From Crossaster papposus (Eukaryota > Echinodermata > Asteroidea > Velatida > Solasteridae): DNA of 64,000 bases. Of this stretch, positions 3,156-60,398 are shown piece after piece. The translations under genes and the position numbers were made by a program. The notes beneath the pieces are model-generated. The model did no database searches, was not told where the DNA came from, and saw only the letters and a list, made by a program, of their open reading frames with translations. The stretch covers positions 124,001-188,000 of the forward strand of contig JBAIAA010000871.1 of NCBI GenBank assembly GCA_037893245.1, given 5' to 3'. The first letter of the stretch is position 1. Every line of letters begins with the position of its first letter.

Positions 3156-3185
3156 ACAAATGTTGGTGCTATTCTAAACAAAACA

Positions 3186-35063: not shown

Positions 35064-37650
35064 CCTGCAAGCTTGCGACAAGCGTGCACGTGTACCTGCA
35101 AGCTTGCGACAAGCGTGCACGTGTACCTGCAAGCTTGCGACAAGCGTGCACGTGAACCTGCAAGCTTGCGACAAGCGTGCACGTGTACCTGCAAGCTTGC
35201 GACAAGCGTGCACGTGTACCTGCAAGCTTGCGACAAGGGTGCACGTGTACCTGCAAGCTTGCGACAAGCGTGCACGTGAACCTGCAAGCTTGCGACAAGC
35301 GTGCACATGTACCTGCAAGCTTGCGACAAGCGTGCACGTGTACCTGCAAGCTCGCGACAAGCGTGCACATGTACCTGCAAGCTTGCGACAAACGTGCACG
35401 TGTACCTGCAAGCTTGCGACAAGCATGCACGTGTACCTGCAAGTTTGCGACAAGCGTGCACGTGTACCTGCAAGCGTGCACGTGTACCTGCAAGCGTGCA
35501 CGTGTACCTGCAAGCGTGCACGTGTACCTGCAAGCGTGCACGTGTACCTGCGAGCTTGCACTTGTACCGGCTAGCTTGCGACAAGCTTGCATGTGTACCT
35601 GCAAGCTTGGGACAAGCTTGCACGTGTACCGGCAAGCTTGCGACAAGCTTGCACGTGTACCGGCAAGCTTGCGACAAGCGTGCACGTGTACCGGCAAGCT
35701 TGCGACAAGCTTGCACATGTACCGGCGAGCTTGCGACAAGCGTGCACGTGTACCTGCGAGCTTGCAACAAGCGTGCACGTGTACCTGCAAGCTTGCGACA
35801 AGCGTGCACGTGTACCTGCAAGCTTGCGACAAGCGTGCACGTGTACCTGCAAGCTTGCGACAAGCGTGCACGTGTACCGGCAAGCTTGCGACAAGCGTGC
35901 ACGTGTACCTGCGAGCTTGCACATGTACCGGCTAGCTTGCGACAAGCGTGCACGTGTACCTGCAAGCTTGCGACAAGCGTGCACGTGTACCTGCAAGCTT
36001 GCGACAAGCGTGCACGTGTACATGTACCTGCAAGCTTGCGACAAGCGTGCACGTGTACTGCAAGCTTGCGACAAGCTTGCACGTGTACCGGCAAGCTTGC
36101 GACAAGCTTGCACGTGTACCGGCAAGCTTGCGACAAGCGTGCACGTGTACCTGCAAGCTTGCGACAAGCGTGCATGTGTACCTGCAAGCTTGCGACAAGC
36201 GTGCACGTGTAACTGCAAGCTTGCGACAAGCGTGCACGTGTACCTGCAAGCTTGCGACAAGCGTGCACGTGTACCTGCAAGCTCGCGACAAGCGTGCACG
36301 TGTACCTGCAAGCTCGCGACAAGCGTGCACGTGTACCTGCAAGCTTGCGACAAACGTGCACGTGTACCTGCAAGCTTGCGACAAGCGTGCACGTGTACCT
36401 GCAAGCGTGCACGTGTACCTGCGAGCTTGCACGTGTACCGGCTAGCTTGCGACAAGCGTGCACGTGTACCGGCAAGCTTGCGACAAGCTTGCACGTGTAC
36501 CAGCAAGCTTGCGACAAGCGTGCACGTGTACCGGCAAGCTTGCGACAAGCGTGCACGTGTACCGGCAAGCTTGCGACAAGCGTGCACGTGTACCTGCAAG
36601 CTTGCGACAAGCTTGCACGTGTACCTGCAAGCGTGCACGTGTACCTGCGAGCTTGCACGTGTACCGGCTAGCTTGCGACAAGCGTGCACGTGTACCGGCA
36701 AGCTTGCGACAAGCTTGCACGTGTACCTGCGAGCTTGCACGTGTACCGGCTAGCTTGCGACAAGCGTGCACGTGTACCTGCAAGCTTGCGACAAGCGTGC
36801 ACGTGTACCTGCAAGCTTGCGACAAGCGTGCACGTGTACCTGCAAGCTTGCGACAAGCGTGCACGTGTACCGGCAAGCTTGCGACAAGCTTGCACGTGTA
36901 CTGGCAAGCTTGCGACAAGCTTGCATGTGTACCTGCAAGCTTGCGACAAGCGTGCACGTGTACCTGCAAGCTTGCGACAAGCGTGCACGTGTACCTGCAA
37001 GCTTGCGACAAGCTTGCACGTGTACCGGTAAGCTTGCGACAAGCGTGCACGTGTACCTGCGAGCTTGCACGTGTACCGGCTAGCTTGCGACAAGCGTGCA
37101 CGTGTACCTGCAAGCTTGCGACAAGCGTGCACGTGTACCTGCAAGCTTGCGACAAGCGTGCACGTGTACCTGCAAGCTTGCGACAAGCTTGCACGTGTAC
37201 CGGCAAGCTTGCGACAAGCTTGCACGTGTACCTGCAAGCTTGCGACAAGCGTGCACGTGTACCTGCAAGCTTGCGACAAGCTTGCATGTGTACCTGCAAG
37301 CTTGCGACAAGCGTGCACGTGTACCTGCAAGCTTGCGACAAGATTGCACGTGTACCGGTAAGCTTGCGACAAGCGTGCACGTGTACCTGCGAGCTTGCAC
37401 GTGTACCGGCTAGCTTGCGACAAGCGTGCACGTGTACCTGCAAGCTTGCGACAAGCGTGCACGTGTACCTGCAAGCTTGCGACAAGCGTGCACGTGTACC
37501 TGCAAGCTTGCGACAAGCGTGCACGTGTACCTGCAAGCTTGCGACAAGCGTGCACGTGTACCTGCAAGCTTGCGACAAGCTTGCACGTGTACCGGCAAGC
37601 TTGCGACAAGCTTGCACGTGTACCGGCAAGCTTGCAGCAAGCTTGCACAT
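35061..37650. repeat. 31-bp satellite array with higher-order structure
   Basis: About 80 units of 31 bp, with core GCAAGCTTGCGACAAGC and GTGCACGTGTACC, full of small palindromes (GCAAGCTTGC, GTGCAC, CACGTG). Unit types differ at ACCTGC/ACCGGC and at AAGCGTGCA/AAGCTTGCA. Shortened units of about 20 bp lack the GCGACAAGC part. A 330-bp higher-order period (ten full units plus one short) is visible at about 36750, 37080 and 37410. Since 31 is not a multiple of 3 and no frame contains a stop, long open frames appear on both strands; they are not genes. Confidence 0.92.
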
Positions 37651-40696: not shown

Positions 40697-41091
40697 TCGG
40701 ACTAGGATTTGACCATGTTTGAATTATTGAGGCTTTTTTATTTTGACTTAGAATTCTTACGTGATTTAACTGGTTCCCGACACAGACAAGGGAAACTCAA
40801 TACGCGCGGAACGTATATATGGAGACCACCCAGGAAATTTGTTTTGGCAATATACCGTAGTCGATGTTAAATTGTGGTATTTTAGTCCAAAATGCACTTT
40901 TTTGACCATAATATGTAATTATTCAAACGATTCCATGATTGAATTTACATTTTTGTGCAAACATAGTGAAAAATTCACATTACATTTCATTCGTATTCAA
41001 ATGTTGACATTATTCTTAAAAAACTAGCTGTGACTTCGTCGTGGACAAAAAAGTGTACTATTGATCACCGCGGACATACGTCACAGGTCAG

Positions 41092-41180
41092 CGCGCCGAT
41101 GAAAACAATGCGCGCCGACACTGCACTGAAGTGAAGCATACAGACTGCACGCGCGATTATCGTTTTCATCGGCGCGGTGT
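41092..41180. repeat. Small inverted repeat CGCGCCGATGAAAAC
   Basis: CGCGCCGATGAAAAC at about 41093 is mirrored by GTTTTCATCGGCGCG at about 41162, with an imperfect extension on each side. MITE-like but short. The rest of 40100-42173 shows no gene to me. Confidence 0.5.
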
Positions 41181-42173
41181 ACGTATTATGACGCGTTATT
41201 GTGAAGGTTCCCGGATGTCCGCCCCGACCTATAAAACTAACAACGGCAATAGCTAAGTTTGAATAAGTGTTCAGATTCAGAGACAGAGGTAATATCATTA
41301 TCAATAGAAATGGGTTATTATTGTATGTATGCGTAATATAATTGTGTAATAAGTTAATTCCATTGGTATTGTTTCATTACGTAACCTTTTTTCTATTAAC
41401 CAAAATTATTGGTTAATAATTTCATCTAGATAACCGGTCTTAATAAAGTCGATATACGAAAAACTAGGGACTGTATACGAACAACTACTGAACTAGGGAC
41501 TGTATAACTAGGGATTGTGCATGCTCTACCAAAACTCACGTAAGAATAAAAAAAAGTACGTAGGGTTACAGTCACGTACAGACGTAAGAATAGCAACGGC
41601 CTAATCAATATTGGAAACTAGGAAAGACTCAAGACAAGTCAAGAGCATTTTTTTGCAAAACCGCTTTAATTTGTTACAATAAACTTACTTTTAAGGGAGG
41701 TGCGCCTTAACTGCTTCTGTTAAAATGCTCGGATATTAACTGTGTTAAATCTGGTTCACGTTGCATGCATGGCGAAAAATAAAGTAAGCAGACTCGACTA
41801 GCTACATGTAGGCACATGAACATGATCAAAGATATATTCGTACTTTTCGTAGAGCTTTGCAAATTGCACACGCTATCAAACCATAGAGTTTTTTTAAACG
41901 TAACAATCTGGCTAAAAGTGCATTGACACGAGTCATCTTAGCAACGCCGATGCTCCTCGTTTTTATGTTAAATCTTATCAATATTGTTTGTAAAAGACCG
42001 CAGATGTGTTAAGATTAAAAATACATTTGGCTATATTTATTTTAAAGTATTATGATACCTATGTTATGTATATTAAGTCTACTTTTTTGTTTGTTAATAT
42101 GATTGGAGCAATGAAAGAGACTATATAACTGTTCACTGTCGTCTGGCCGGTCATTGGCATAGCAACGGCCTTT

Positions 42174-42840
42174 TGCTGCGTTCCAATCGCGTCGTGTTTA
42201 TCGTGTTCACCGTGAATTTCTCCATGTTCACGTACGAGTAGATTGCATTCCAAACGCTACTCACCAAGACGCACGCGCACAGTCGAGTTAGTCATGCGGT
42301 AAGGACATTATTTATCACGCAAGAACTCGTACGTGAACCAACACGCATGCGCGAGTATTTCATTGGCTATAAAGTCGTGAGCATGGAGAACAAAATTCCA
42401 CCTTGAGTTCACCACTGGTGAACACGAGTAACCAGACAAGTCGACCGTTGAGACAACTCGACTCACCTGGCAGAACCTAGCCCGCGATTCAACACGCGAT
42501 TCAGCCCGCGATTCAGCCTTCGATTCAACCCGCGATTCAGCCCGCGATTCGGTTGGCCGCAGCCGTTCATAAAAATTTAGAATCCATGCGACAAAAGGAG
42601 GTGCTGATTTGAAACTAGATTTACAGATTAGATCAACGAATTTTCGAAAATAGAACGGAAATTAATCCCCAATTAAAGATTAACTTCAACAATAACTATC
42701 AGCAAGACTATAAATAGTATTCTTAACACTTTTTTCCCTCCAAAATTGCCATTATATTAGTCGATTCCAGAGAACCTCATTTTTAAGCGTTTCTCGCAAC
42801 ATATTACTTCCGAATCAATAAAATGCCGTCTTAAATAAAA
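42174..42840. repeat. Giant transposon, left unique inverted end
   Basis: Mirrors 55470-55932. The part 42430-42840 (from CACCTGGCAGAACCTAG inward) is nearly identical to the right end, including repeated GCGATTCAGCCC motifs near 42480-42550. The outer 250 bases match mainly at the extreme end. Confidence 0.8.
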
Positions 42841-43973
42841 TGGTGTACCGCACATGTTTTGTAAATTTTTTATTTTTACTTCATTATCCTAATTATCACC
42901 TTCCTGGGCACACTTAATTTCAGCAAGGGCATATTCCAATAAGCCGATCCGTTCCAAACGGCCTCTTAAAGAGGCAACGTTTTCGATAACATCTGAAAAA
43001 TGCGGTATTTAATGTTTTTAGTAAAACACTGTCTTAAAAAAAAAGTGTACCGCACATGTTTTGTAAAATTAACGTTTTTACTTCATTATCCTAATTATCA
43101 CCTTACTGGGCACACTTAATTTCATCAAGGGCGTATTCCAATAAGCCGATCCGTTCCAAACGGCCTCTTAAAGAGGCAACGTTTTCGATAACATCTGAAA
43201 AATGCGGTATTTAATGTTTTTAGTAAAACACTGTCTTAAAAAAAAAGTGTACCGCACATGTTTTGTAAAATTAACGTTTTTACTTCATTATCCTAATTAT
43301 CACCTTACTGGGCACACTTAATTTCAGCAAGGGCGTATTCCAATAAGCCGATCTGTTCCAAACGGCCTCTTAAAGAAGCAACGTTTTCGATAAGATCTGA
43401 AAAATGCGGTATTTGATGTTTTTTGTAAAATGCCGTTTAAAAAAAAGTGTACCGCACATGTTTTGTAAAATTAACGTTTTTACTTCATTATCCTAATTAT
43501 CACCTTCCTGGGCACACTTAATTTCAGCAAGGGCGTATTCCAATAAGCCGATCCGTTCCAAACGGCCTCTTAAAGAGGCAACGTTTTCGATAACATCTGA
43601 AAAATGCGGTATTTGATGTTTTTAGTAAAACACTGTCTTAAAACAAAAGTGTACCGCACATATTTTGTAAAATTAACGTTTTTACTTCATTATCCTAATT
43701 ATCACCTTACTGGGCACACTTAATTTCAGCAAGGGCGTATTCCAATAAGCCGATCTGTTCCAAACGGCCTCTTAAAGAGGCAACGTTTTCGATAACATCT
43801 GAAAAATGCGGTATTTGATGTTTTTAGTAAAACACTGTCTTAAAAAAAAAGTGTACCGCACATGTTTTGTAAAATTAACGTTTTTACTTCATTATCCTAA
43901 TTATCACCTTACTGGGCACACTTAATTTCAGCAAGGGCGTATTCCAATAAACCGATACGTTCCAAACGGTCTC
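42840..43973 (-). repeat. Giant transposon, left satellite array
   Basis: About five to six copies of a roughly 201-bp unit (CCGTTCCAAACGGCCTCTTAA start, then TTATCCTAATTATCACCTT), inverted relative to the right array. It is terminated by the MITE at 43974, after which a short unit remnant (AAGAAGCAACGTTT) resumes at 44363. Confidence 0.88.
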
Positions 43974-44362
43974 TTAAAGGTAGTAAACACCATTTGCAGA
44001 TATCGAAAAAAAAATACTACCGAATTATTAAGAAATATCTTACTTATTTGAAAGTAAATAATGATTCTAGGCATCCAGCAAAAAGATTGCCCTAGATATC
44101 CTGTAATTGTCCCGAAAAATTGAATTGTATAAACCAAAATTCATTATCGCCGGACGGCGATCGCGAAATAAACAAAAATAAAATAAGAAAAACTTCCCGA
44201 TTCCGGTTGAAAACGAAAGTCTTTTTTCTTGCTTTTCTCTGCAACAATGATTCTAAAACTTCGGACAGGTCAGTTAAACGATATTTACTATGAAATATAA
44301 CCCCCTAAATCCACCCATTCATGATAATTCAAGCAATTACCAATGGTGTATACTACCTTTAA
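43974..44362. mobile_element. TTAA MITE, AGGTAGGATACACC family, copy 3, inside the array
   Basis: 389 bp flanked by TTAA. It sits at CTC-TTAA-AGAAGC, which is the uninterrupted sequence of the satellite unit, so the empty site is proven by neighbouring units. Bases 44400-45487 that follow are non-coding interior of the giant element, with no feature seen. Confidence 0.85.
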
Positions 44363-45487
44363 AGAAGCAACGTTTCGATTACATCTGAAAACGTTTTTTT
44401 CATTATTTGGGGTTTTTTTCCTGCGCTCTTTTATAATTTTAAGAAAACACGAATTCAGAGAGAAAATGTCGCCTAACGCACATGTTTATCTTTATTTCAT
44501 ATCTTCATGATCGGTTTTTCTGTTTAGCTCACTCAATGTCAGCACCGTTTTATTATGATGGATGACTCTATATATAAAACATTTGACTTATACAGACATG
44601 AAAGCCTTTCTAACAAACTTTAAATGACAAAATATATATCTTATACTATATCCGTAAGTCATTATATCACTGTACCTATTACCGACACGCTTGTAACGTG
44701 TCATTTGGATGTAAAATGCCTCCCTAAAAAAATATCGGTTTATGAAAGGAATTATAGATTCGGACAAGTGTGACAGGGACCTTACAATTGTGTTGGTCCA
44801 CTAAAGGCCTATTATTCAATACTTAAACTTGCAAATTGTTCAAAATCTTTTTTCAATAACTGCTTAATAATGTTGTTGTTGGCAGAATAATATGATTACA
44901 CACCGAAATGACGATGGACGATGCGCTTAATTATTGTTATTTAAGATGGCAAGATTACCAATAACAATAAATACCAACAAATTAGTTTCTTGTTAAAATT
45001 CAGCTCCCCCAAAGTACATGTATATGTATTACAAAGTTTTAAGAAGTGAATATAAAAGTAAGGTAGCACTTTTTATGACCAACTAGAGTAAAACAAAAAG
45101 GGTGCATATGCTTTCGTAGCTGCAGATACTTCATCAGATGCAATGAAGTGGGGCATCATTATACAAGATATACATACAGGAGCAGTCATGTACATTTACC
45201 GGGCCACACAATAATTCAGTTTAGAGTAGCTGCATGTACTCCAACATATGGGATTAAAACCAAGGGTGGACAGGGAAATTACAGAACAAAAGATCATTCG
45301 TAAACTGAACTGTATACAAATACGCCTTAATTAAAAGGGTCGTGTTTTTTGCCACACTACACTATTAATGATTAATCACCACCCTCTGTTAAACACCTGC
45401 CCACCATTAAAAGTCAAGTGAGTTGACTTGAATATAATTGTCGAAGTTGGGGGTCTACAATGTTAGATCGTCGTATAAGCTGAATCG

Positions 45488-47452
45488 CTATATACATCCG
45501 GAGTTCTTCAGTGTTACTGTCTGTCTGGAGTTTTCCGATCCTAGGCACAATTCTTCTGCAAACAAGCAGCAATAGACACCGCAACTTGCCAAATCTGTTT
45601 GCTGCGGACACGGTGCCTGTCTAATATTAACCATTTTTTCACACTGAAGAACTCCGTGAGTTTGATTCCAATACCTCTTGATTAGACCGTTCTGAAAAAA
45701 CTCTCTAAATGCATGTCCATGAACTAAACGTTTCTGTCTAGTGTCTTTCCTATCACTCATGGAATCGAAACAATCTATCATGCTACTTTTAGTGTCAAGG
45801 ACGTACAGGGTGAAGTGCCTATTTTCTAATAATGGAAATAGCAATACCTCGCTGAAATGCAAACCTGCAATGCAATTTTTGGCCACCGATCTATATGTTT
45901 CTTGGGTTATTTTATTGTTTAGTATCTTGTCGGTGACAAAGCACTGCACTGACCCAAATTTTATTTTTTGATGGGTATCCGTATGTGACAGTTTACACAG
46001 TTGATTTATGTAAAAGTCTATTACTCCTTCTTCTAACCATCCTAGTTGGTAATTTATGTATGTGCGTTTAAGGTGCTTCACAATAGCAGTAGATGGAGAC
46101 GAACTTATTGTTGCTAACTGCAAAAATGACAAGAAATCGGTGTTTGTTGCGTTTTTGACTGCAACGCTGGGGAGGTTTTTCTCATTGAGCGAACACCAGA
46201 GAATTTTCATAAATTCTCTCTCCTTCTTGTTTACTACGAAATGGTCATCTGAAGTGCATGAGCCAGTGTCTTTGTCTTTACTCTGTAGGCCTATGTTGGT
46301 TCTTTCATAGAAAAATAAATAACCTGATTCTGATACCTGGGTGTTGAAAGCAAAAGTGTCTATCTGGTCTACACGTGAGTCGTCGAATTTCGTTAGGCTA
46401 GTACCATACAAATTGTCTTTTATGAATGCCTTATAATGCCCACTCTGTAGGGATTGACCCTCGTGGGTTATCACAGATCTTAGTCTATAAATGGCAGGTG
46501 TTTTGTTCACGCAGAATCGGCGTAAATCTATCTGTACACTAGGGACAACTTCTGTCGAGATTTTTTCTAGTTTGTTGTCTGCGACACGGGATCGTAGAAG
46601 TTGCGCAACTAACAGAAACGGACAATTGACAATGCGGTACGTCATGATTTTTTTACACAGCGTCTCTTTGCACAAGTCACAATTGACATCCCGAACCATT
46701 TCATCCTCAAAAACCTGTTGAATGCATCTGTCTAAGTTTGAATTACTCACAGGAACCGGCAACACTCCAGAAGTCAAATTTTCTATCGGTTCGCTTTCGT
46801 CACAATTTAGGCACATCACTGATTTAACAATTTCTATTTTGTTAGTGAGACAAGACTCGCCCACAAAAGGCACAATCAGTTGGGAATAGAATTCTGCAGC
46901 ATCCTGTTGGTGTTTGGGGTTGATCCCCATTTGCAATGCACTCTCTTGTACTAATGGTTTCACTTCATGGAATGGAACAGGAGCGGGATTTCCATTCTTT
47001 AATGAAACAAAAAGCTTCATCAGGTTTCGCCAAAGAAATACTTCGCTTCCCTGAAATTTGGCAACATCGGTTTTTGTTGCATTAACGAATGGCCGAACAG
47101 CTTGGATGGTTGAGATCCACCAACAAGACACTTGATTATTTGTAATCCCCCTAGATAAGGACGATGTTGTCTGGTTTCTAGTGTCTGTGACTGCACCTTT
47201 CTTGTGTTTGGTTGAGTTGTTTTTATGTTTTTTATTTTTTTGAAGTAATGTATTGTTACTCCCGGTTTGTTGGCTTTCTGGCTTTATTTTTTGTTTGTTC
47301 GAACCGTCTTTAAATCGCAACTCCTTAGTTGGGGGTGTAAGGTAGACACCTTTTTTGGTCGGTGTGCTTGTTTTAGGACGTTTTGACCATTTCTCATTTG
47401 ACAGTTTCAATGATCGTTTATACAGTTCGTTTAGAGGTACAAAAAGCTTCAA
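45488..47452 (-). CDS. Transposon-encoded USP plus Ulp1 dual protease
   Basis: 654 codons. Residues 1-100 are Lys/Thr/Asn-rich. Residues about 104-385 form a ubiquitin-specific protease (peptidase C19): Cys box NNQVSCWW (C110), QQDAAEF (182-188), a zinc ribbon (C214/C217 and C258/C261), His box HEGQSLQSGHY (GHY 338-340) and YLFFYER (378-384). Residues about 470-640 form a Ulp1/SENP-type SUMO protease (C48): GWLEEGVIDFYI, RHFTLYVLD (H546), CFDS (D563), and Q-x-D-L-A-S-C-G (C624). Both catalytic sets look intact. The USP motif WW replaces the usual Tyr-Leu after Cys. The frame opens at a TTG, has no ATG before codon 145, and overlaps the transposase ORF end by 35 bases in another frame. It was therefore probably a C-terminal continuation of the transposase, joined by splicing or frameshift, or broken by an indel. 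Confidence 0.85.
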   Translation of the reverse strand: MKLFVPLNELYKRSLKLSNEKWSKRPKTSTPTKKGVYLTPPTKELRFKDGSNKQKIKPESQQTGSNNTLLQKNKKHKNNSTKHKKGAVTDTRNQTTSSLSRGITNNQVSCWWISTIQAVRPFVNATKTDVAKFQGSEVFLWRNLMKLFVSLKNGNPAPVPFHEVKPLVQESALQMGINPKHQQDAAEFYSQLIVPFVGESCLTNKIEIVKSVMCLNCDESEPIENLTSGVLPVPVSNSNLDRCIQQVFEDEMVRDVNCDLCKETLCKKIMTYRIVNCPFLLVAQLLRSRVADNKLEKISTEVVPSVQIDLRRFCVNKTPAIYRLRSVITHEGQSLQSGHYKAFIKDNLYGTSLTKFDDSRVDQIDTFAFNTQVSESGYLFFYERTNIGLQSKDKDTGSCTSDDHFVVNKKEREFMKILWCSLNEKNLPSVAVKNATNTDFLSFLQLATISSSPSTAIVKHLKRTYINYQLGWLEEGVIDFYINQLCKLSHTDTHQKIKFGSVQCFVTDKILNNKITQETYRSVAKNCIAGLHFSEVLLFPLLENRHFTLYVLDTKSSMIDCFDSMSDRKDTRQKRLVHGHAFREFFQNGLIKRYWNQTHGVLQCEKMVNIRQAPCPQQTDLASCGVYCCLFAEELCLGSENSRQTVTLKNSGCI

Positions 47453-48760
47453 CGAATTCTCTTTGCAATGGGAGCATGTCTCTTTCGTAAATCAGAACGA
47501 AATCAATTAATTTAGAGCACCTATTGTACATTAATTTCGCTCTTTTCGTTTCTTGCATGGATTTTTCTACTATCCCTTGTGTCCGATTATCCTTTGAAAT
47601 GTTCTGAAATTTTGACTTTTCTAGTACTCTGTACATCCTTGAGTAGACATCATATGTTGGTGATGTACCATGCCTTCCAAGATCATGCAGTAACAGTGCT
47701 GACCAGCTAGCTATGTTTGAGAGGGGGCATTCTAATAGATAGTTCAACAGCTCTTTTCCTATGTATGGATTTTTGGTCAGTTGTGCGGAATTATTTATGT
47801 CTTTGCCAAATTTGTCAATTTCTATTTGTGCTTGTTCCAGAATACTTTTAAAACGAACCTTGAATGGCGAGTTGTGTCCCTTTAGAATGTATTCGTCCTC
47901 TGAAATGTCCAGGCGGCTAGTTTCGTTCTCAGACAAGTTTTCTAAGTCTGGTGTGTCGGGACCCTCTTCTTCATCGAGGTGTTCGAATATATCTTCCAAG
48001 TTATCAGTTTGGGTTGAACTCTGATGTTCGATTTTATATTTCAGTTTATTATAGTTTTCTCTAACAAAATCAGTAGCAAACTCCGAAGTTGTTACTATTG
48101 CAAGAGAAAATATAATTTCATCGATTTCGGCAAGGCTGCTTGCTTGTACTAAGAGACCCAACCAATACATAGCATCGCGGAAGTTAGACTGGTAATACTT
48201 TCTGCACATTTTGGCACTGTTTTTTACGAAGTGACTTGCGCATAAATGAACGTGTTTTTTTTTAAGATCGTTCTCTCGAGCTTTACCAGTAACAATTCGA
48301 TAACATCTTTCGTTGTATTCGGATACAGATTCATTGCTAAAGGATTTTAGTGTGGCGAGAAGAAGATTGGGACTTCCATCTATCATTATCATGAGCGGTG
48401 GCTTTACACCGTTACGGCCATACAGTTTCTGTTCCGAATGAAGAAAACATTGCAAAAAATAACCTATTAATACTGCGTTGTGTTCCGTTGTCAACAAAGA
48501 CGCTACTACAAAAGGCGGGGAACCCTTGAGTGGATGCCGTGTGACAATGTCGTACAGTTGATACTTCTTTGAATCAGAAAACCTGGAGTTATTTTTGATA
48601 ATGGAACCTGTGGCATCAAAATATATTATGTCTTTACAGGATATGTTATGATAAATTCGGACACTGTCTTCCGAATATAGCATAACATAATGCTGGTTGG
48701 AGACAAACTTGGCGTAAAATTCCCGGAATACGTTTACTGGAGTCAGCTTGCCTGTTCATT
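47418..48760 (-). CDS. RNase-H-like transposase core of the giant element
   Basis: The open frame extends from about 48760 (KLTPVNVFREF just after a frame change) to the stop at 47418; an ATG occurs at 48683. Conserved-looking motifs counted from that ATG: YFDATGS (D23, first acid), MIMIDGSPNLLLA (D102, second acid), HLCASHF (C148-H151), then an acidic insert (EDIFEHLDEEEGPDTPD) and a helical C-terminal region (SALLLHDL). D...D...C/H spacing resembles MULE- and KDZ-type transposases with an RNase H fold. The third acid is not assigned with certainty. It would act in the nucleus on the long inverted ends. The frame is broken at its 5' side relative to the upstream segment 48750-49013. Confidence 0.7.
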
Positions 48761-49013
48761 ACATTAAGCAGATTTTGTATCTCACTTTCCTTCTCATCGT
48801 CCAAACGCTTAGCCTCACTTGATATTTTATGCAAAACTACTTTGTTTGGCGCACGGTCTCGACAGCCTGACAGGAATTCTTCCTCGGTTAGTGATTTCAT
48901 GTTATCAAGATATTCACGACGAACCTTCTTATACTTTAATTTGTCTTTCATGTCGTCCCTCAGTGTATTTCGAACGTATCTTGCCCGTCGTTCACTAAGC
49001 CTATGCTTTATGG
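48750..49013 (-). pseudogene. Transposase middle segment, split by a MITE
   Basis: Reads HRLSERRARYVRNTLRDDMK ... LLNVMNRQ, a basic helical stretch. Downstream it loses phase with the RNase-H core by one base near 48750. Upstream it is cut by the MITE pair at 49014-50157. Removing the MITE and one TTA joins it in frame with the segment ending VVFSGKV at about 50160. So the ORF was continuous before the insertion. Confidence 0.7.
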
Positions 49014-50157
49014 CCCTGTCACACCAGAACATTTTAGGCCAACGCGTGAGTAACGTGTTGTAATTTTGGCAACACGCTGGCAAACGCTGACCAACGCTAG
49101 GCCAGCGTTAGCAACACGCTGAGCGCGTTACTCACGCGCTGGGACATGCTGTTACACGCTGAGGAAAACATATTTTTTTCAACATACATACAATTTCCAG
49201 CGTTTGCCAGCGTGTGACTGCACACGCTGGCGGAGCGTTGGAGGTTTGTTACTCACGCGTCGAACACGCTAGACGATCGTTATCAACCCGCAACTCACAC
49301 GCTGGCGCACGCTGGTGTACGCTGGCGTATTCTGGCGACACGCTGGTTATGGCACTGTCACCCCAGAACGTTTTAAGCCAATGCATGAGTAGCGCGTTAA
49401 AAATAGTTGATACGCTGGCAATCGCTGAACTTTCACAGAAAAAGTCAAGTGGAACCGTGATTTCAGCGTGTCCATACAGGTTGATTACGGGTTCATAGCG
49501 TATGCCAGCACGTGAGTATCGTGTGAGGAACGCGCTCAGCGTGTGAGGAACGTATCACTGATTTATAGTAAAAATACGACAGCGGGTCGCCAGCGTGTGA
49601 GTAGTGGGTTGGTAACGTTCGTCTAGCGCGTTCGACGCGTGAGTAACGACCATCCTGCGCGCCGCCAGCGTGTGCAGTCACACGCTGGCAAACGCTGAAA
49701 ATTTTAGGTATGTTGAAAAATGTATTTTTGCCTCAGCGTGTGACAGCGTGTTCCAGCGTGTGGGTAACGCGCTTATCGTGTTGCGAACGCTGGCCTAGCG
49801 TTGGTCAACGTTTACCAACACGTTGGCCTAAAACGTTCTGGTGTGACAGGGCCATTAGTGTAGTAGCGCGTCTGTTTTTTATACAACTAATCATGTGGTC
49901 GTTGCAGTACGCTGGCGCGCGTTGGAACGCGCTACTTACGCGCTAGGCAGTCGTTCATCAGTCGTCGAGTGCGTTACTAACGCGTTACTCACGCGCTGGC
50001 GAACGCTATGATCCCGTTAACAACGCGTTATGGACACGCTGAAATCACGGTTCCACTTGACTTTTTCTGTGGAAGTTCAGCGTTTGCCAGCGTATCAACT
50101 ATTTTTAACGCGCTACTCACGCGTTGGCCTAAAACGTTCTGGTGTGACAGGGCCATT
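49014..50157. mobile_element. Harbinger-like MITE with an inverted copy nested inside it
   Basis: Outer ends TGGCCCTGTCACACC (49014) and its inverse (ending about 50155), flanked by TTA on both sides. Inside, a second pair of the same ends (about 49346 and 49851) is also flanked by TTA. The left outer part (to 49345) is the inverse of the right part of the inner element, and the right outer part (from 49855) is the inverse of the inner left part. So one copy inserted head-on into another. Three-base TTA duplication and GGCCCTG-type ends fit PIF/Harbinger. The interior has many ACGCTGG/GCGTTAC motifs and no gene. Confidence 0.8.
49346..49851. mobile_element. Inner nested Harbinger-like MITE
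   Basis: Starts TGGCACTGTCACCCC (two changes from the outer end), ends GGTGTGACAGGGCCA, TTA on each side. It is an inverted relative of the outer element. Confidence 0.75.
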
Positions 50158-50505
50158 ACCTTGCCACTAAATACAACGTGTACCTTCAGATTACTCTCTG
50201 ATTTCATCATCATTTTAAACTGTACGCTGCAATTGGTAAAGTTGCAATATCCACTTGCAGTAAAGGCATGTTTTGATTGCTTTCTGCTCGATATAAATGC
50301 CACAGAGTGTCGGCGAAACTGGAATGCGCAATACGGGTGTAAGGTTTTCAGGCCTTTTGAGAATGTGTGTACCCAATTATTTGGTAATGTGTGCCCACGT
50401 TGCTTTTTTTTAAGCTGCTTCCAGTCCGACCGGTCAACGTGAAAAAAACACTTTCTGGACAAGGGCAACTCCGTCGTCCAATACTCGCCATGCTCAGATA
50501 CATTG
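50158..50505 (-). pseudogene. Transposase N-terminal Zn-ligand segment
   Basis: Minus-strand frame reading RSDWKQLKKKQRG, NWVHTFSKGLKTLHPYCAFQ, HAFTASGYCNFTNCSVQFK, and VVFSGKV. The CAF...YCNFTNC pattern is a plausible zinc-binding region and keeps phase with 48750-49013 once the MITE is discounted. A frame change separates it from 50512-50841 upstream. No ATG starts it. Confidence 0.6.
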
Positions 50506-50511
50506 CCTATT

Positions 50512-51140
50512 TCAAGGCATATCCATCATCCCATTGGCAGGTAAAGCATTGTCTGAGAAATTGTTGTCTAAACCTAATTTAGAAGAATATAACGATCCCG
50601 ACTGTTCATCAACGTTAACTTCGCTTTTCTGTAATGGCGACTTCATAAATGTATCGGCAGTTGAATGTACGTTATTCGATTCGCTCTCATTATCGGCAAA
50701 ACCAGTGTTGTAGCCACATCCCTCCCCATCTACGGACATTTCAATCGGTGACAAATTTGGAGTTAAATGTTCATCATCTGACAACAGAATATTTGTTGGT
50801 TTTTCTGTTTCTTTCTTATTTGCTTTAATCCAGTCTGACACTTTTTTAAAATTGTCTGCTGGTCTCTACCCGTGGTCTGAATGACCCACTTCTTCAGGAG
50901 AAGCAGAGTGTTTGTGCCCAAATACAGACTCGGGCACAAACACCCTCTCACCGTCGTTGCACCCATTAATGCCGCAAATGAATTTGGTATTATTTAAATA
51001 GGATTTGTTCCTTGATATGGGCTGCAAATTTATACATTGATAGTGATACCAAACATCGCATTGGTCACACTCTATCATACTTCGCGATTGGTTGTGTGGT
51101 TGTTGACATATATGCAGTAAAGTTGATTTGAATCTTCTGC
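50512..51140 (-). pseudogene. PHD-finger segment of the giant element
   Basis: From about 51140 the frame reads HICQQPHNQ, then MIECDQCDVWYHYQCINL and FICGINGC: the C4HC3 pattern of a PHD finger, a domain that usually reads histone tails. It continues to TAG at about 50866. The same frame is open beyond the stop (SDWIKANKKETEKPTNILLS, acidic/Ser-rich) to 50512. So a single TAG interrupts an otherwise continuous 200-codon frame. It is out of phase with the repeat-rich ORF upstream (51205-51978). The segment is either broken, spliced or read through. Confidence 0.65.
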
Positions 51141-51204
51141 TAGTTTATTGGATTTCTCTGACGTTATGGAATCTTCCACCGATTCATTGTACCCGTAAGC
51201 ATTT

Positions 51205-51978
51205 TCAGAAGTATTCATAGTAGATTTGGGGGCAGATGATAAATTTATTTCGTACGTCACTATCAATTTTTGAAGTATTCATGATAGAGTTTAGTGAAGA
51301 TGATATCTTTTTCACCGATTTATTTTGTAAGTCACCCTTTTCAGAAGTATTCATGTCAGATTTTGGGGCGGATGATATATTTTCCTTCGATTGAGTTCGT
51401 ATGTCGCCATCAGTTTTAGAAGTATTCATATTAGAATTTGAGGAAGATGATATCTTTTTCACCGATTTATTTTGTACGTCACCCTTTTCAGAAGTATTCA
51501 TGTCAGATTTTGGGGCGGATGATATATTTTCCTTCGATTGAGTTCGTATGTCGCCATCAGTTTTAGAAGTATTCATATTAGAATTTGAGGAAGATGATAT
51601 CTTTTTCACCGATTTATTTTGTACGTCACTCTTTTCAGAAGTATTCATGGCAGATTTTGGGGCGGATGATATATTTTCCTTCGATTGAGTTCGTATGTCG
51701 CCATCAGTTTTAGAAGTATTCATATTAGAATTTGAGGAAGATGATATCTTTTTCACCGATTTATTTTGTACGTCACCCTTTTCAGAAGTATTCATGGCAG
51801 ATTTTGGGGCGGATGATATATTTGCAACCGATTCGTTGTGTACGTTACTGTTTTCACGAGTATTGTTAGATTTTGAGGAGGCTGTTCTGAACGAGTGATT
51901 TTCCACATTTTTGTTTCCATATGTACATGTATTCGTTTCGGTTTGGAGACAAGACTCTTGTTCTGGTTCTGATTGCAA
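51205..51978 (-). CDS. Ser/Asn/Lys-rich repeat segment of the giant element
   Basis: 257 codons from a TTG. Contains about four tandem copies of a 49-residue (147-bp) repeat with ISSAPKS-MNTSEK-GDVQNKSVKKISSSSN and KTDGDIRTQSKEN parts. Low complexity, likely disordered. The frame is open leftwards of 51978 (GSTGSVYGTPSDS), so the true start may be further upstream (about 52050-52230). In position it is the N-terminal part of the transposon protein that leads to the PHD finger. Repeat copies are nearly identical, so they arose recently. Confidence 0.55.
   Translation of the reverse strand: MQSEPEQESCLQTETNTCTYGNKNVENHSFRTASSKSNNTRENSNVHNESVANISSAPKSAMNTSEKGDVQNKSVKKISSSSNSNMNTSKTDGDIRTQSKENISSAPKSAMNTSEKSDVQNKSVKKISSSSNSNMNTSKTDGDIRTQSKENISSAPKSDMNTSEKGDVQNKSVKKISSSSNSNMNTSKTDGDIRTQSKENISSAPKSDMNTSEKGDLQNKSVKKISSSLNSIMNTSKIDSDVRNKFIICPQIYYEYF
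51290..51840. repeat. 147-bp coding tandem repeat
   Basis: Period 147 bp (49 codons), roughly four copies within the repeat-rich ORF. The period is a multiple of three and the frame is kept. Confidence 0.8.
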
Positions 51979-52299
51979 CCTTGAATCTGACGGAGTCCCA
52001 TAAACACTTCCAGTGCTACCACGAACAAATTGGGATTCGTGGTTTTCCGGTGTGGCGGTCTCACTTCTCCGGGGTGCTCACTTCTCCGAAAGGAAAATCT
52101 CGCTTCAATACGCATGCGCAAAAGTGCGCAGTGGCTTACATTTTCGCCGACTTTATTCTGTGTGCTGAGTTCTTTGGTAATGTACTGGATGGTGCGCGTG
52201 CACGTAAGATTGTAGGATGATGTCTACGTTACATACAGCTAGGGTACCAGTAGAATTCAGAATTTCCGCGGCGACGGGGCCGTGCGGCAAAATTGTACA

Positions 52300-55200
52300 A
52301 GCATCTTTAAGAGGCCGTTTGGAACAGATCGGCTTATTGGAATACGCCCTTGCTGAAATTAAGTGTGCCCAGTAAGGTGATAATTAGGATAATGAAGTAA
52401 AAACGTTAATTTTACAAAACATGTGCGGTACACTTTTTTTTAAACGGCATTTTACAAAAAACATCAAATACCGCATTTTTCAGATCTTATCGAAAACGTT
52501 GCTTCTTTAAGAGGCCGTTTGGAACAGATCGGCTTATTGGAATACGCCCTTGCTGAAATTAAGTGTGCCCAGTAAGGTGATAATTAGGATAATGAAGTAA
52601 AAACGTTAATTTTACAAAACATGTGCGGTACACTTTTTTTTTAAGACAGTGTTTTACTAAAAACATTAAATACCGCATTTTTCAGATGTTATCGAAAACG
52701 TTGCCTCTTTAAGAGGCCGTTTGGAACAGATCGGCTTATTGGAATACGCCCTTGCTGAAATTAAGTGTGCCCAGTAAGGTGATAATTAGGATAATGAAGT
52801 AAAAACGTTAATTTTACAAAATATGTGCGGTACACTTTTGTTTTAAGACAGTGTTTTACTAAAAACATCAAATACCGCATTTTTCAGATGTTATCGAAAA
52901 CGTTGCCTCTTTAAGAGGCCGTTTGGAACGGATCGGCTTATTGGAATACGCCCTTGCTGAAATTAAGTGTGCCCAGTAAGGTGATAATTAGGATAATGAA
53001 GTAAAAACGTTAATTTTACAAAACATGTGCGGTACACTTTTTTTTAAACGGCATTTTACAAAAAACATCAAATACCGCATTTTTCAGATCTTATCGAAAA
53101 CGTTGCCTCTTTAAGAGGCCGTTTGGAACGGATCGGCTTATTGGAATACGCCCTTGCTGAAATTAAGTGTGCCCAGTAAGGTGATAATTAGGATAATGAA
53201 GTAAAAACGTTAATTTTACAAAACATGTGCGGTACACCTTTTTTTTTAAGACAGTGTTTTACTAGAAACATGAAATACCGCATTTTTAAGATGTTATCGA
53301 AAACGTTGCCTCTTTAAGAGGCCGTTTGGAACGGATCGGCTTATTGGAATACGCCCTTGCTGAAATTAAGTGTGCCCAGGAAGGTGATAATTAGGATAAT
53401 GAAGTAAAAACGTGAATTTTCTAAAACATGTGCGGTACACTTTTTTTTAAACGGCATTTTACAAAAAACATCAAATACCGCATTTTTCAGATCTTATCGA
53501 AAACGTTGCCTCTTTAAGAGGCCGTTTGGAACGGATCGGCTTATTGGAATACGCCCTTGCTGAAATTAAGTGTGCCCAGTAAGGTGATAATTAGGATAAT
53601 GAAGTAAAAACGTTAATTTTACAAAACATGTGCGGTACACTTTTTTTTTAAGACAGTGTTTTACTAAAAACATTAAATACCGCATTTTTCAGATGTTATC
53701 GAAAACGTTGCCTCTTTAAGAGGCCGTTTGGAACGGATCGGCTTATTGGAATATGCCCTTGCTGAAATTAAGTGTGCCCAGTAAGGTGATAATTAGGATA
53801 ATGAAGTAAAAACGTTAATTTTACAAAACATGTGCGGTACACTTTTTGTTTAAGACAGTGTTTTACTAAAAACATTAAATACCGCATTTTTCAGATCTTA
53901 TCGAAAACGTTGCCTCTTTAAGAGGCCGTTTGGAACGGATCGGCTTATTGGAATACGCCCTTGCTGAAATTAAGTGTGCCCAGTAAGGTGATAATTAGGA
54001 TAATGAAGTAAAAACGTTAATTTTACAAAACATGTGCGGTACACTTTTTTTTTAAGACAGTGTTTTACTAGAAACATCAAATACCGCATTTTTCAGATGT
54101 TATCGAAAACGTTGCTTCTTTAAGAGGCCGTTTGGAACAGATCGGCTTATTGGAATACGCCCTTGCTGAAATTAAGTGTGCCCAGGAAGGTGATAATTAG
54201 GATAATGAAGTAAAAACGTGAATTTTCCAAAACATGTGCGGTAGGCCTACACTTTTTTTTAAACGGCATTTTAAAAAAACCATCAAATACCGCATTTTTC
54301 AGATCTTATCGAAAACGTTGCCTCTTTAAGAGGCCGTTTGGAACGGATCGGCTTATTGGAATACGCCCTTGCTGAAATTAAGTGTGCCCAGTAAGGTGAT
54401 AATTAGGATAATGAAGTAAAAACGTTAATTTTACAAAACATGTGCGGTACACTTTTTTTTTAAGACAGTGTTTTACTAGAAACATCAAATACCGCATTTT
54501 TCAGATGTTATCGAAAACGTTGCCTCTTTAAGAGGCCGTTTGGAACAGATCGGCTTATTGGAATACGCCCTTGCTGAAATTAAGTGTGCCCAGTAAGGTG
54601 ATAATTAGGATAATGAAGTAAAAACGTTAATTTTACAAAACATGTGCGGTACACTTTTTTTTTAAGACAGTGTTTTACTAGAAACATCAAATACCGCATT
54701 TTTAAGATGTTATCGAAAACGTTGCCTCTTTAAGAGGCCGTTTGGAACGGATCGGCTTATTGGAATACGCCCTTGCTGAAATTAAGTGTGCCCAGTAAGG
54801 TGATAATTAGGATAATGAAGTAAAAACGTGAATTTTCCAAAACATGTGCGGTACACTTTTTTTTAAACGGCATTTTACAAAAAACATCAAATACCGCATT
54901 TTTGAGATCTTATCGAAAACGTTGCTTCTTTAAGAGGCCGTTTGGAACAGATCGGCTTATTGGAATACGCCCTTGCTGAAATTAAGTGTGCCCAGTAAGG
55001 TGATAATTAGGATAATGAAGTAAAAACGTTAATTTTACAAAACATGTGCGGTACACCTTTTTTTTTAAGACAGTGTTTTACTAAAAACATTAAATACCGC
55101 ATTTTTCAGATGTTATCGAAAACGTTACCTCTTTAAGAGGCCGTTTGGAACGGATCGGCTTATTGGAATACGCCCTTGCTGAAATTAAGTGTGCCCAGTA

Positions 55201-55470
55201 AGGTGATAATTAGGATAATGAAGTAAAAACGTTAATTTTACAAAACATGTGCTGTACACTTTTTTTTAAAGACAGTGTTTTACTAGAAACATCAAATACC
55301 GCATTTTTCAGATCTTGTCGAAAACGTTGCTTCTTAATTTAAGAGGCCGTTTGGAACGGATCGGCTTATTGGAATATGCCCTTGCTGAAATTAAGTGTGC
55401 CCAGGAAGGTGATAATTAGGATAATGAAGTAAAAATATAAAATTTACAAAACATGTGCGGTACACCATTT
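52300..55470 (+). repeat. Giant transposon, right satellite array
   Basis: About 16 copies of a 200-203-bp unit (TTTAAGAGGCCGTTTGGAAC, then CGGATCGGCTTATTGGAA). Two unit types alternate irregularly: one with AAACGGCATTTTACAAAA, the other with AAGACAGTGTTTTACTA. Each unit has a CCTCTTTAAGAGG palindrome at its junction. No gene in the array. Confidence 0.92.
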
Positions 55471-55932
55471 TATTTAAGACGGCATTTTATTGATTCGGAA
55501 GTAATATGTTGCGAGAAACGCTTAAAAATGAGGTTCTCTGGAATCGACTAATATAATGGCAATTTTGGAGGGAAAAAAGTGTTAAGAATACTATTTATAG
55601 TCTTGCTGATAGTTATTGTTGAAGTTAATCTTTAATTGGGGATTAATTTCCGTCCTATTTTCGAAAATTCGTTGATCTAATCTGTAAATCTAGTTTCAAA
55701 TCAGCACCTCCTTTTGTCGCATGGATTCTAAATTTTTATGAACGGCTGCGGCCAACCGAATCGCGGGCTGAATCGCGGGTTGAATCGAAGGCTAGGTTCT
55801 GCCAGGTCTCGACTCGGGACAAGTCGACCGTTGAGACAACTCGACCGTTGAGACAACCGATTAAAACGCCATAGAGACATCCGATTATACGACTCGTGAA
55901 CACGATAAACACGAGGCGATTGGAACGCAGCA
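55470..55932. repeat. Giant transposon, right unique inverted end
   Basis: Inverse of 42174-42840: near-identical for about 300 bp next to the array, including GAATCGCGGGCTGAATCGCGG, then diverged with a re-match at the extreme end (ATTGGAACGCAG). Confidence 0.8.
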
Positions 55933-55977
55933 TATTGCTAATGCTAGCGTAGAGCAAGACACACCGCAAACATTAAC

Positions 55978-56029
55978 ATGTCTAACGAATATAAACGGAA
56001 AGTTGGAATTGTGGGATTTGGAAATCTAG
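55978..56029 (+). CDS. ASPDH: ASPDH-like aspartate dehydrogenase, exon 1
   Basis: ATG at 55978 begins MSNEYKRKVGIVGFGNL; the glycine codon split over the donor (CTAG/GTAATT) completes the Rossmann GxGxxG nucleotide-binding motif. Exons 2 and 3 continue in phase. ASPDH is the animal homologue of L-aspartate dehydrogenase, an NAD(P)-dependent oxidoreductase converting aspartate to iminoaspartate/oxaloacetate; the role in animals is not well established. The gene continues past the window: exons for the catalytic domain are not found up to 64000. The start codon lies about 46 bp beyond the end of the giant transposon, and no promoter element is evident in between. Confidence 0.85.
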
Positions 56030-56798
56030 GTAATTTTGTGTTCCTTTTTTGTTTGTTAATTGTCATCATTGACTTGTTATTGAATATTTGAGAATGAGAA
56101 TGCGCTGCTTTTGATTCCACCACACCCATGACACCAGCACGTCCAGGGGCATGGACGGTCTAGGCACCAGAGACATGATTGGTCATTCATTGAACTGTGA
56201 ATAACATTTGCGATTCCAAGTAGTTGATTGGAGTGACATTCTGAAATGAAGCATCCAACAACATGCAGTCTGTGATTTTTGATTGCTGTTAGTGTTGAGA
56301 AACACACTGAAATTCATAGTGATGATTTGCATACAATTAATTTAGTTTTACACCCCCCCCCCCCGCCCATTTCTTTGTGAACCTAAGCTTGGTGGGTGGC
56401 AAGATATTGCACTGATTTTGATATGCAAAATTTGAAGCAATGTCGCCGTGACGTCATTGGGTTTTTATGAATTTTTTTATATATAAAATTTCATTCTTAT
56501 TCGACTTTCAATTTCACAAAAATCGTTAATTGACAAGTGTCGTCATAATAACGTCATCGTAGAGCATCTTAAAGGCCAGCCCGGGCTTACTATGAAACTG
56601 CTTCTTGCAAAGTATGGTAACATTTTTGGACAATTGCAGAATACCTCTCTCACGCTTCATTGCCCACCAGATTGGGTTCAATCTTGGCATGTGGGATGGG
56701 ATGTATTTTAGATGAAAATTGAAGTGACGTCATGATGGCATTGTCATACGATTATGAATTGTTATAATTTTGAACCTTTATTTTATGCCATATTTTAG

Positions 56799-57196
56799 TT
56801 AAAGGGATCGTATACGTTTGGTAATTTGAACCCACTGTTTGTTTCAATCCTATATATAGTTATAGTATACCATAAAACTAACCTGTAAAAATTTCTTTTC
56901 AAAAAGTGGTAGCGATGTTTAGATATTGCCGAAAATCTGGAGCGGTTATGTCCACGCAGGAAGAATAATCTGCATTTGACTACACGATCTGAGAAATGTC
57001 ACTGCAGTATTGAACGCTTCTCAGATTCAAATTTTTGGGGATAAAAAGTGATATCTTTTTCCATAACCGCAGTACTTCAACGTGAACAGTTTCTAAAAAT
57101 GCATTATATTATCCAAAGTTGCTGTGCTTCTTATCAATTGAGTTTTTATTGCCATTAATTTTTGAAGTAATTACCAAATGTATACGATCCCTTTAA
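56799..57196. mobile_element. TTAA MITE, GATCGTATACGTTTGG family, copy 1
   Basis: TTAAAGGGATCGTATACGTT and its inverse, flanked by TTAA, about 398 bp, in ASPDH intron 1. The second copy, in opposite orientation, is at 59982. Bases 56030-56798 show no gene. Confidence 0.78.
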
Positions 57197-57239
57197 AGAA
57201 CATATGCTAAAATCACATTTCTTTCTGTATAGGTTTAGG

Positions 57240-57352
57240 TGCCCCCCCCCCCCCCCCCCCCCCCCCCGTGCCCCCTTCCCCCCGCCCGTGCCCCCCCCCC
57301 CCTCCCCGTGCCCCCGCCCGTGCCCCCCCCCCCCCCCCCCCCCGCCCCCGTT
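57240..57352. repeat. Poly(C)-rich tract with CCCGTG spacers
   Basis: About 110 bases of C runs separated by GTG or G. The proline-rich frame is an artefact. Confidence 0.9.
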
Positions 57353-57564
57353 AGGGTCAATCAGAGTGCTTCAGATTTTAATTATTGCACTGTAAATGAA
57401 ATCCATTGATAATTTTTTTTAATTGAAATTGAGACGAGCTTAATGGTGTTTAGAGTCAAAGTGTCGTTATGATGAATTTGTATGATGTAAACTGGTGTTA
57501 AAACAACTGGGAAAACCTATATTAAACAGTTTTGTTTCTATATTTTGTTTATCACAAACTTAAG

Positions 57565-58760: not shown

Positions 58761-59164
58761 CAACACTGCAGTGGTTCACATCTTACCTGTCTTACCTACC
58801 TGTATCAATGCTCCAGGGATTAGTCTTAGGCCCACTCCGGTTTTGTATTTATACCTTACCACTTGGTCACATCATCCGTAGTCATGGCATGGAATTACAC
58901 ATGATACAGTAACGCACAGTTACATGTACAGTCCCATATCTCATGTTACGTCTCATGACGTCTTAAAGGGAGTGTCAGGAATTGAGGCGTCTGGGAGTCC
59001 ACAAATTTCCTTCAAACTCAGTGCCATAATGCTCAATGCCCAAAACTCCAGCATTGTTAAAACGTTCAGAATGTTTGCCAAGATATTCCTAAATCCTTAG
59101 TGTTTCTGATCAGTACCACTGAACAAATCAGAATTATGATGGTTATTCTACTTGATTGTTATGT

Positions 59165-59335
59165 AGGTAATAACAGTGCGAGGACCCGGTTATTACTGCG
59201 TGATAATGAACGGGTTGGGGGATGACCGCTGGTAATGGATCGAGCCGAAGGCGAAGTCCATTACCATCGGTCATTCCCCAAAACCGGTCCTTATCACGCA
59301 GTAATAACCGGGTCCTCGCACTGTTATTACCTTTA
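59165..59335. repeat. Palindromic MITE-like hairpin, 170 bp
   Basis: GGTAATAACAGTGCGAGGAC and its inverse flank a near-continuous hairpin with CGGTTATTACTGCGTGATAA arms. Non-coding. Confidence 0.75.
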
Positions 59336-59805
59336 ATAAATACCTTTTTAACGAGAAAAATTGTGAAAATGTTCCAAATTTCGTGACTTTCCTTTCGGCG
59401 ATATTTCCATGCATGGTACCCTGTCTCTTCAATATGTGTTGTTATTATAACCATAGAGAAAGTTATAACCCATACTTCGAGACCAGACTAGCTGACCACT
59501 GATGCCCACCGTGCATAGCAACGCGCTAGTGTTAACAGACGACACGCACATTTTTAAAAATGCCGCGCCTATAAATGTAGATACAAACGTTCTACATAAA
59601 GTACGCATACATTTATAGCGCGCAGTATCAAGATTTGACGCGTCCTTGTTGCAAGTTACCGTAGAACTGATGCATTCGGCCACTCATTGGCTTACATGAT
59701 GCTTGATTAATGCTGGTTCAGGAACATTGTACATGTAATCCACTCAACGTGATCGAGTCTCGACCAATCAGAAGCCAGCAACTCTCCTAGGTATTTATTA
59801 ATAAG
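59331..59805. mobile_element. MITE-like element, AATAAATACCTTTTT family
   Basis: From TAATAAATACCTTTTTAACG to CCTAGGTATTTATTAATA, with a TCTCGACCAATCAGAA motif near the right end. Resembles the segment ending at 22475 in DRC2 intron 7. Confidence 0.5.
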
Positions 59806-59981
59806 TGATAGTCCAGCTGTAACTTCCGTACTAACCGTTTCTTGTCTTAAGGGAGGAGGATAATTTAGATTGGCATTACGCAGCCACCATATCCGTAATG
59901 TATGATATAACGTGCAGTAAATAAAGCCTCCTTCAGTAAATAATCCACTAGGAGTCTTAATGTCTTTAGAACAGTAATCAA

Positions 59982-60398
59982 TTAAAGAGATCGTATACGT
60001 TTGGTAATTACCGTACTCCAAAAATTAATGTCAATAAAAAATTACTAAGTAAGAATTACAGCAGCTTTGGATAGTAAAATGCATTTTTAGAAACTTTTCA
60101 CTTCGAAGTACTGCGGTTATGGAGTTACTGCAGTGACGTTTCTCAGACTGTGATGCAGATTATTCTTCCTGCGTGGACATAACCGCTCCAGATTTTCGGC
60201 AATATCTCAAAATCGCTAGCACCTTTTTTAATAAATCTTTTACAGGTTAGTTTTATGGTATATGCGCCTTTGTTCAGCGCCTTGATCTAGTGTCTAGGAT
60301 ATGTGCGCTTTATAAGAACTTTGTATTATTATTATTATTATATAAAGGATTGAAACAAACAGTGGGTTTCAATTACCAAACGTATACGATCCCTCTAA
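59982..60398. mobile_element. TTAA MITE, GATCGTATACGTTTGG family, copy 2
   Basis: Inverse orientation to 56799-57196; left TTAA intact, right reads CTAA. It carries an extra stretch (about 60265-60345: GCGCTTTATAAGAACTTTG then an ATT run) that looks like a small retroelement 3' end inserted in it. Confidence 0.7.

Follow-up and report, generated by a model that had tools for sequence, protein, structure and literature searches.

Among transposons described so far, the Rehavkus elements are the nearest kind to the one reported here, a likeness drawn from descriptions and not from sequence. According to excerpts of the literature, they have a PHD finger, one ORF, a 9-bp target duplication, terminal inverted repeats (TIRs) of 26-400 bp and a minisatellite, and they occur in arthropods and annelids; very few are known, in Repbase only (PMC6446971). 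The same partial sources place the group, described in Repbase, as sister or outgroup of MULEs. One member, Rehavkus-1_TC, is 9.5 kb long and has a 164-bp satellite in its inverted ends, mostly in 5 and 8 units (excerpts of PMC10218199). Inverted ends made of tandem repeats are likewise described for Foldback, Galileo and Tetris, where they can seed satellite DNA, and the Galileo arrays are considered extra transposase binding sites (excerpts of PMC4079207, and work cited in it). Proteases have been reported in some Mutators (Ulp1), in Ginger1, whose transposase is fused to Ulp1 or OTU and once occurs with a PHD finger, and in a Trichomonas protein with transposase_11 and peptidase C19; a role in deconjugation has been proposed for those of Ginger1 (excerpts of PMC2836005). 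Among the titles and abstract openings listed from the literature covered (in one search 10 of 35), with Repbase Reports and most subscription journals outside its scope, none describes a transposon protein that combines a ubiquitin protease with a SUMO protease.

The locus examined here lies in a 64,000-nucleotide stretch of Crossaster papposus DNA (the window). It very probably holds one member of a family of DDE-type DNA transposons that move by cut-and-paste, with a PHD-transposase-USP-Ulp1 protein, ACCTG termini and inverted arrays. The transposon spans 42465-55807 (13,343 bp; termini ACCTGGCAGAACCTAG). The terminus common to other copies, ACCTGGCAGAACC, begins at 42465 and its mirror ends at 55807, and an exact 8-bp target-site duplication, CTCGACTC, lies immediately outside each (plus strand, 42457-42464 and 55808-55815). 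A query covering 42174-42840 returned at least 43 matches in the host genome (1.02 Gb, 1,841 contigs; 40 of 2,474 candidates scored): the window itself, 39 at 93-99% and three at 84-85% identity. All 42 matches outside the window leave the first 285 query bases uncovered. The terminus ACCTGGCAGAACCTAGCC has 88 + 93 = 181 genome matches at no more than one mismatch, and its reversed control has none.

The original prediction had set the ends at 42174 and 55932, with CTGCGTTCCAATCGC as terminal sequence, and these limits proved wrong. Ends of the CTGCGTTCCAATCGC type have 1,232 + 1,209 = 2,441 genome matches at up to three mismatches, against none for the reversed control; the first 100 places listed include six pairs spaced 312-331 bp from each other. 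These ends belong to a separate short repeat and not to the element. That repeat family has 35-bp inverted ends (CTGCGTTCCAATCGC...) and is found at 42174-42464 and 55816-55932 (both plus strand, outside the element) and at C479:1093512-1093924. CTGCGTTCCAATCGC was ruled out as the element's end, since it belongs to this family, of which contig C479 holds an uninterrupted copy. The element is inserted into a short high-copy repeat of the CTGCGTTCCAATCGC family.

Contig C479 provides the empty site. The joined window flanks (408 bases with one CTCGACTC) match C479:1093512-1093924 end to end at 95%. Bases 1-696 of the C479 locus match window 40804-41506 (98.7%) and bases 839-1796 match 41503-42464 (97.1%), with ~140 unmatched bases between the two, and bases 1789-3413 match 55808-57394 (95.1%). 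The left and right flank matches overlap by exactly 8 bases. Window 59000-60200 is also colinear with C479 at 98%, and the colinear flank thus reaches 60.2 kb. C479 is an element-free second copy of the locus in the same genome, with CTCGACTC once where the window has it on both sides, as the proposed comparison of filled and empty sites showed. The most economical reading is that the assembly retains both haplotypes, C479 being the second of them, and that the insertion is heterozygous; C479 could be a segmental duplication instead. A local inverted duplication around a host gene, with no transposon involved, would account for the inverted flanks themselves and for nothing else. The empty site, the target duplication and the many copies speak against it; it is ruled out by the element-free C479 locus, and we give it practically no credence. 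The single-copy scenario raised in the original prediction as its possible undoing is likewise at odds with these findings.

Other features of the neighborhood are recorded here for completeness. On the plus strand, ~170 bp to the right of the element (55978 onward), a first exon MSNEYKRKVGIVGFGNLG is followed by GT; we take it to resemble aspartate dehydrogenase domain proteins. Arrays of an 84-bp unit at 1759-2707 and 14212-16216 read by eye, on the minus strand, as C2H2 zinc fingers in tandem, and a 2.6-kb GC-rich tandem array with a 31-bp unit and its multiples occupies 35059-37648.

The element's ends consist of the ACCTG termini followed by inverted arrays of satellite units. Outside the arrays, the TIRs cover 42465-42836 on the left (plus strand), including a 12-bp minisatellite at 42479-42550, and 55472-55807 on the right (minus strand). 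The left array (42837-43979, plus strand) has 6 units of about 202 bp and the right array (52301-55471, minus strand) has 16 in the opposite orientation, with a unit spacing of 200-206 bp, mostly 202; the oppositely oriented arrays that had been predicted are present. The longest inverted pairs in the window measure 742-816 bases at 97-99% identity. One pair of 456 bases scored 100%, yet its aligned ends differ at a few positions. Inverted arrays were found in seven copies with 6-112 units per side (left/right: window 6/16, C64 12/12, C489 21/95, C356 22/112, C471 6/50, C174 25/21, C334 19/9). In C356, C471, C174 and C334 the core is reduced to about 150 + 780 bp and the coding core is gone. 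These copies look non-autonomous; they keep a non-coding core stretch that lies at 44000-44921 in the window.

A second subfamily, represented by C7, has a terminus (ACCTGTCCAAAGC; 21 + 19 matches at up to two mismatches, control 0) that resembles ACCTGGCAGAACC of the window. The left side of C7 carries an array of a 186-bp unit, which has an 89-bp stretch in common with the window unit at 69% identity, and within this stretch the 15-bp box GGGCACACTTAATTT is intact. This box, present in the units of two subfamilies, has 1,434 + 1,410 genome matches, and its control has none. In the first 100 of these listed, the C2 places lie first on the plus strand and later on the minus strand, and successive places on C7 are spaced 186 bp apart. 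Two copies on C445 have identical flanks (25 bases per side) and lengths of 19,860 and 29,074 bp, a difference that would fit growth or loss of the arrays. In 166 sampled units, similarity was 0.948 within an arm, 0.934 between the arms of one element and 0.929 between elements. Units are thus hardly more alike within an arm than between arms or elements, and this sample gives no clear signal of strong homogenization within elements. From terminus to terminus, the copies on C7 and C535, both with exact 8-bp duplications, measure 42.6 and 51.9 kb.

Some ends have unusual arrangements. The left end of C489 (L023, C489:1088095) is a palindromic head-to-head junction of two termini, and similar head-to-head pairs occur on C64 and C862. 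Five elements of ~1.1-1.6 kb (L035-L044, on C119, C235, C305, C326 and C344) have the ACCTGGCAGAACC terminus within a longer inverted repeat, gtttgcaaatatatacgacgaagcg; judged by these ends, they are a different composite.

The coding core of the window copy lies on the minus strand. Its N-terminal part (51205-52077) is of low complexity, with 147-bp (49-codon) tandem repeats that are expanded in C64. The PHD-finger coding region follows at 50950-51120. Here the predicted chromatin reader stands in part: the PHD finger passes the Pfam cut-off in the copy on C489 (1.3e-6), whose transposase is 98% identical to that of the window, but the region is frame-broken in the window itself. Frames of 117 and 165 codons (50028-50865), continuous in C489, lead to the transposase, of which an upstream piece (48646-49107) aligns with the database protein P0003 and with C489. 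The catalytic frame (47418-48755, 445 codons) contains the D, D, CxxH and E positions. Downstream, a single 667-aa frame encodes both predicted peptidases, which Pfam identified with confidence: the USP (UCH) domain at 46307-47149 (7.6e-25; residues 115-395) and the Ulp1 (Peptidase_C48) domain at 45518-46039 (1.8e-11; residues 485-658). A search of PDB sequences with this frame gave 19 weak matches, to USP and SENP proteins.

The 445-aa transposase frame matched no Pfam family and no solved structure in the PDB sequence search. The D, D, CxxH and E positions, conserved in alignment, suggest the RNase-H-like nature that had been predicted. AlphaFold models, built from an alignment of 5 sequences for P0003 and of 2 for the window USP-Ulp1 frame, had pLDDT values of 36 and 31, too low to use. 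The transposase coding sequence is interrupted by a ~1.15-kb nested repeat (49010-50156), foreign to the element proper and missing at that point in C489 and C64. This repeat has inverted ends TGGCCCTGTCACACC, TAA flanking both sides and copies elsewhere in C64 and C489; we take it to be perhaps PIF/Harbinger-like. Frame breaks lie close to the PHD finger, within and next to the transposase, and close to the Ulp1 end. As its reading frames stand, the window copy cannot encode the whole protein and, if it was inserted in that state, it would therefore have been moved by the enzyme of another copy.

The family is multi-copy, with several divergent subfamilies. Genome searches gave 70 matches to the transposase frame on 37 contigs and 78 to the USP-Ulp1 frame on 36; 23 contigs have both, within a few kb of each other by hand comparison. 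Near-identical transposase copies lie on C489 (98%), C130 (97%), C64 (97%) and C261 (96%), followed by C461 (83%), many others at ~49-63%, then decayed pieces of lower identity, and distant matches at 24-29%. Intact members encode the transposase and both proteases in a single frame, about 1,470-2,090 codons long. This was seen at six loci (C7 2,024, C360 2,088, C364 1,807, C96 1,807, C643 1,482 and C245 1,468 codons), these being lengths of the open frame that covers the three domains, upstream of which further exons are possible; some loci may be haplotype pairs and so represent fewer insertions. Intact members scanned at their N-terminal part have one or two PHD fingers. Pfam found UCH (8.6e-28), C48 (3.7e-9) and PHD (1.9e-6) in the C7 frame, and UCH (1.1e-26) and PHD (2.8e-13, two stretches) in the C360 frame, where C48 went unmatched although the region aligns. 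On C489, a 2,062-codon frame begins with N-terminal repeats, continues through the PHD finger and the transposase and reaches the USP, where it is broken by a ~1.27-kb insert.

A distant relative on C767 (L031; 24% identity) has a 1,891-codon frame with long acidic repeats, a PHD finger (7.6e-8) and the same core motifs; it suggests that PHD and transposase form the older core. Beyond this genome, a large protein database yielded three short relatives, P0001 (314 aa), P0002 (258 aa) and P0003 (991 aa), the last of which has a single frame that covers the transposase and a portion of the USP. C7 residues 735-2018 found no relative among 6,009 database candidates of comparable length. Viral contigs gave 13 pattern matches, none encoding a relative, and a PHROGs search gave no convincing match.

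Target duplications vary between copies. The window duplication is exact and backed by its empty site, and in the C7 subfamily three of eight pairs are exact at 8 bp (C7 TTTACGCT, C535 CTGTTTTC, C596 CAATGTGC). Two more, C656 and C1257, match over 8 bp with one mismatch and have the same flanks in opposite orientation; they are probably one insertion in two haplotypes. The remaining three (C164, C904, C362) have no target duplication. In the window subfamily, 10 further pairs were scored and none has an exact 8-bp duplication: five lie within a different inverted repeat, two (both on C445, with the same flanks) match over 10 bases with one mismatch, C49 and C59 share 4 bases, and the C338 pair has none. 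C334 also lacks a duplication at its termini, and C356, C64, C471, C174 and C489, with one terminus altered, were left unscored. That all 10 further window-subfamily pairs and C334 lack an exact 8-bp duplication, and three of the eight C7-subfamily pairs lack any, counts against the cut-and-paste reading, as does the non-significant profile match to MULEs of this genome. Nonetheless, the multi-copy relatives, the empty site and the 8-bp duplications together bear out the predicted mobile DNA element, with its fold-back-type satellite ends and its core of PHD, transposase, USP and Ulp1.

Sequence conservation extends to the presumed active sites. In a 13-row transposase alignment, D226, D305, H354 of the CxxH and D536 are nearly invariant, and all 11 rows that span the RTQGIIE stretch, in a count by eye, have its Glu. 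The five-row USP/Ulp1 alignment, in which P0003 ends within the USP, has invariant VSCWW and QQDA motifs, and SGHY and the Ulp1 His, Asp, Gln and Cys positions are common to the rows that cover them. These residues have catalytic roles in USP and Ulp1 proteases. Each of the 12 domain comparisons shows fewer differences at second than at third codon positions, a contrast that is not a dN/dS test and in which third positions are near saturation. The two proteases could also be passengers captured from host genes, taking no part in transposition. In keeping with this, they are less conserved than the transposase (USP 33-56%, Ulp1 31-46%, transposase 50-65% in the pairs measured), and Pfam detects neither UCH nor C48 in the distant C767 frame. 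Both are nevertheless in frame across subfamilies, with their key motifs kept and fewer second- than third-position changes, and we regard passenger status as improbable.

Some MULEs, in hydra, lancelet and plants, carry Ulp1, and as excerpted descriptions have it MULEs combine 8-11-bp duplications with long TIRs, as here. By eye, the order D...D...CxxH...E is also similar. The Pfam MULE transposase had no match in the window or in the C7, C360 and C767 frames scanned, and none of the 79 genome matches to PF10551 overlaps the transposase or USP-Ulp1 loci of the element. A profile comparison by hhalign with MULEs of the same genome (six loci, five used) brought the D, D and CxxH into line but fell short of significance (probability 0.4%, E 0.16). 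KDZ elements are large DNA transposons, some linked with Ulp1; their transposase domain, for which Pfam presumably includes a model, had no match in the Pfam scans. The element resembles Ginger1 in joining a transposase to Ulp1, with a PHD finger as well (excerpts of PMC2836005), but Ginger1 has a Gypsy-type integrase core and Pfam found no integrase here. It is like Foldback, Galileo and Tetris in its tandem-repeat inverted ends and, going by the excerpts, unlike them in having proteases; unlike Galileo and the P superfamily, it has no THAP or P-type domain by Pfam in C489 or in the C7, C360 and C767 frames.

FB/Galileo and KDZ, the comparisons originally offered, are therefore less close than Rehavkus, which by its excerpted descriptions combines a PHD finger with satellite-bearing inverted ends. 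The transposon has a PHD finger in its transposase protein (in C489, C7, C360 and C767), satellite in the inverted ends of seven copies and on the left side of C7, and one ORF at the six stop-free loci, all of which fit the excerpts of PMC6446971 and PMC10218199. It could accordingly be a plain Rehavkus member whose proteases and 8-bp duplication are ordinary, unreported variation of that group, and we rate this as only slightly short of an even chance. The differences, measured against partial descriptions, are a duplication of 8 bp (window, C7, C535, C596) and not 9 bp, hosts given as arthropods and annelids, and the USP and Ulp1 in the same frame: Ulp1 and C48 are mentioned 0 times in the accessible text of PMC6446971, and the Rehavkus descriptions seen in excerpt include neither protease. 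Arrays of up to 112 units per side also contrast with the 5 and 8 of Rehavkus-1_TC.

For the DDE-type transposon family favored here, the cut-and-paste mode and the protein roles are what we infer from domain content and comparison. The transposase would bind the termini and probably the box repeated in the satellite units, as analogy suggests, and the PHD finger would tether it to marked chromatin. USP and Ulp1 may remove ubiquitin and SUMO tags either from the transposase or, where the DNA has been cut, from repair factors and chromatin, and by analogy with Ginger1 this might let the reaction or its repair finish. The arrays would grow and shrink by unequal exchange. A bolder proposal, which we consider rather unlikely, is a separate superfamily of giant satellite-ended transposons with histone reader, transposase, deubiquitinase and deSUMOylase in one protein, in which transposition would depend on the last two to free chromatin and repair proteins of ubiquitin and SUMO, and the arrays would serve as cooperative binding platforms and a source of new satellites.

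The element unites two ideas, that removal of ubiquitin or SUMO eases passage through chromatin and repair (Ginger1; excerpts of PMC2836005) and that transposon ends seed satellite DNA (excerpts of PMC4079207 and PMC10218199). The 42.6-kb and 51.9-kb copies give a measure of the repeat load such an element can carry. With two catalytic cysteines in one polypeptide, the deconjugation idea becomes directly testable.
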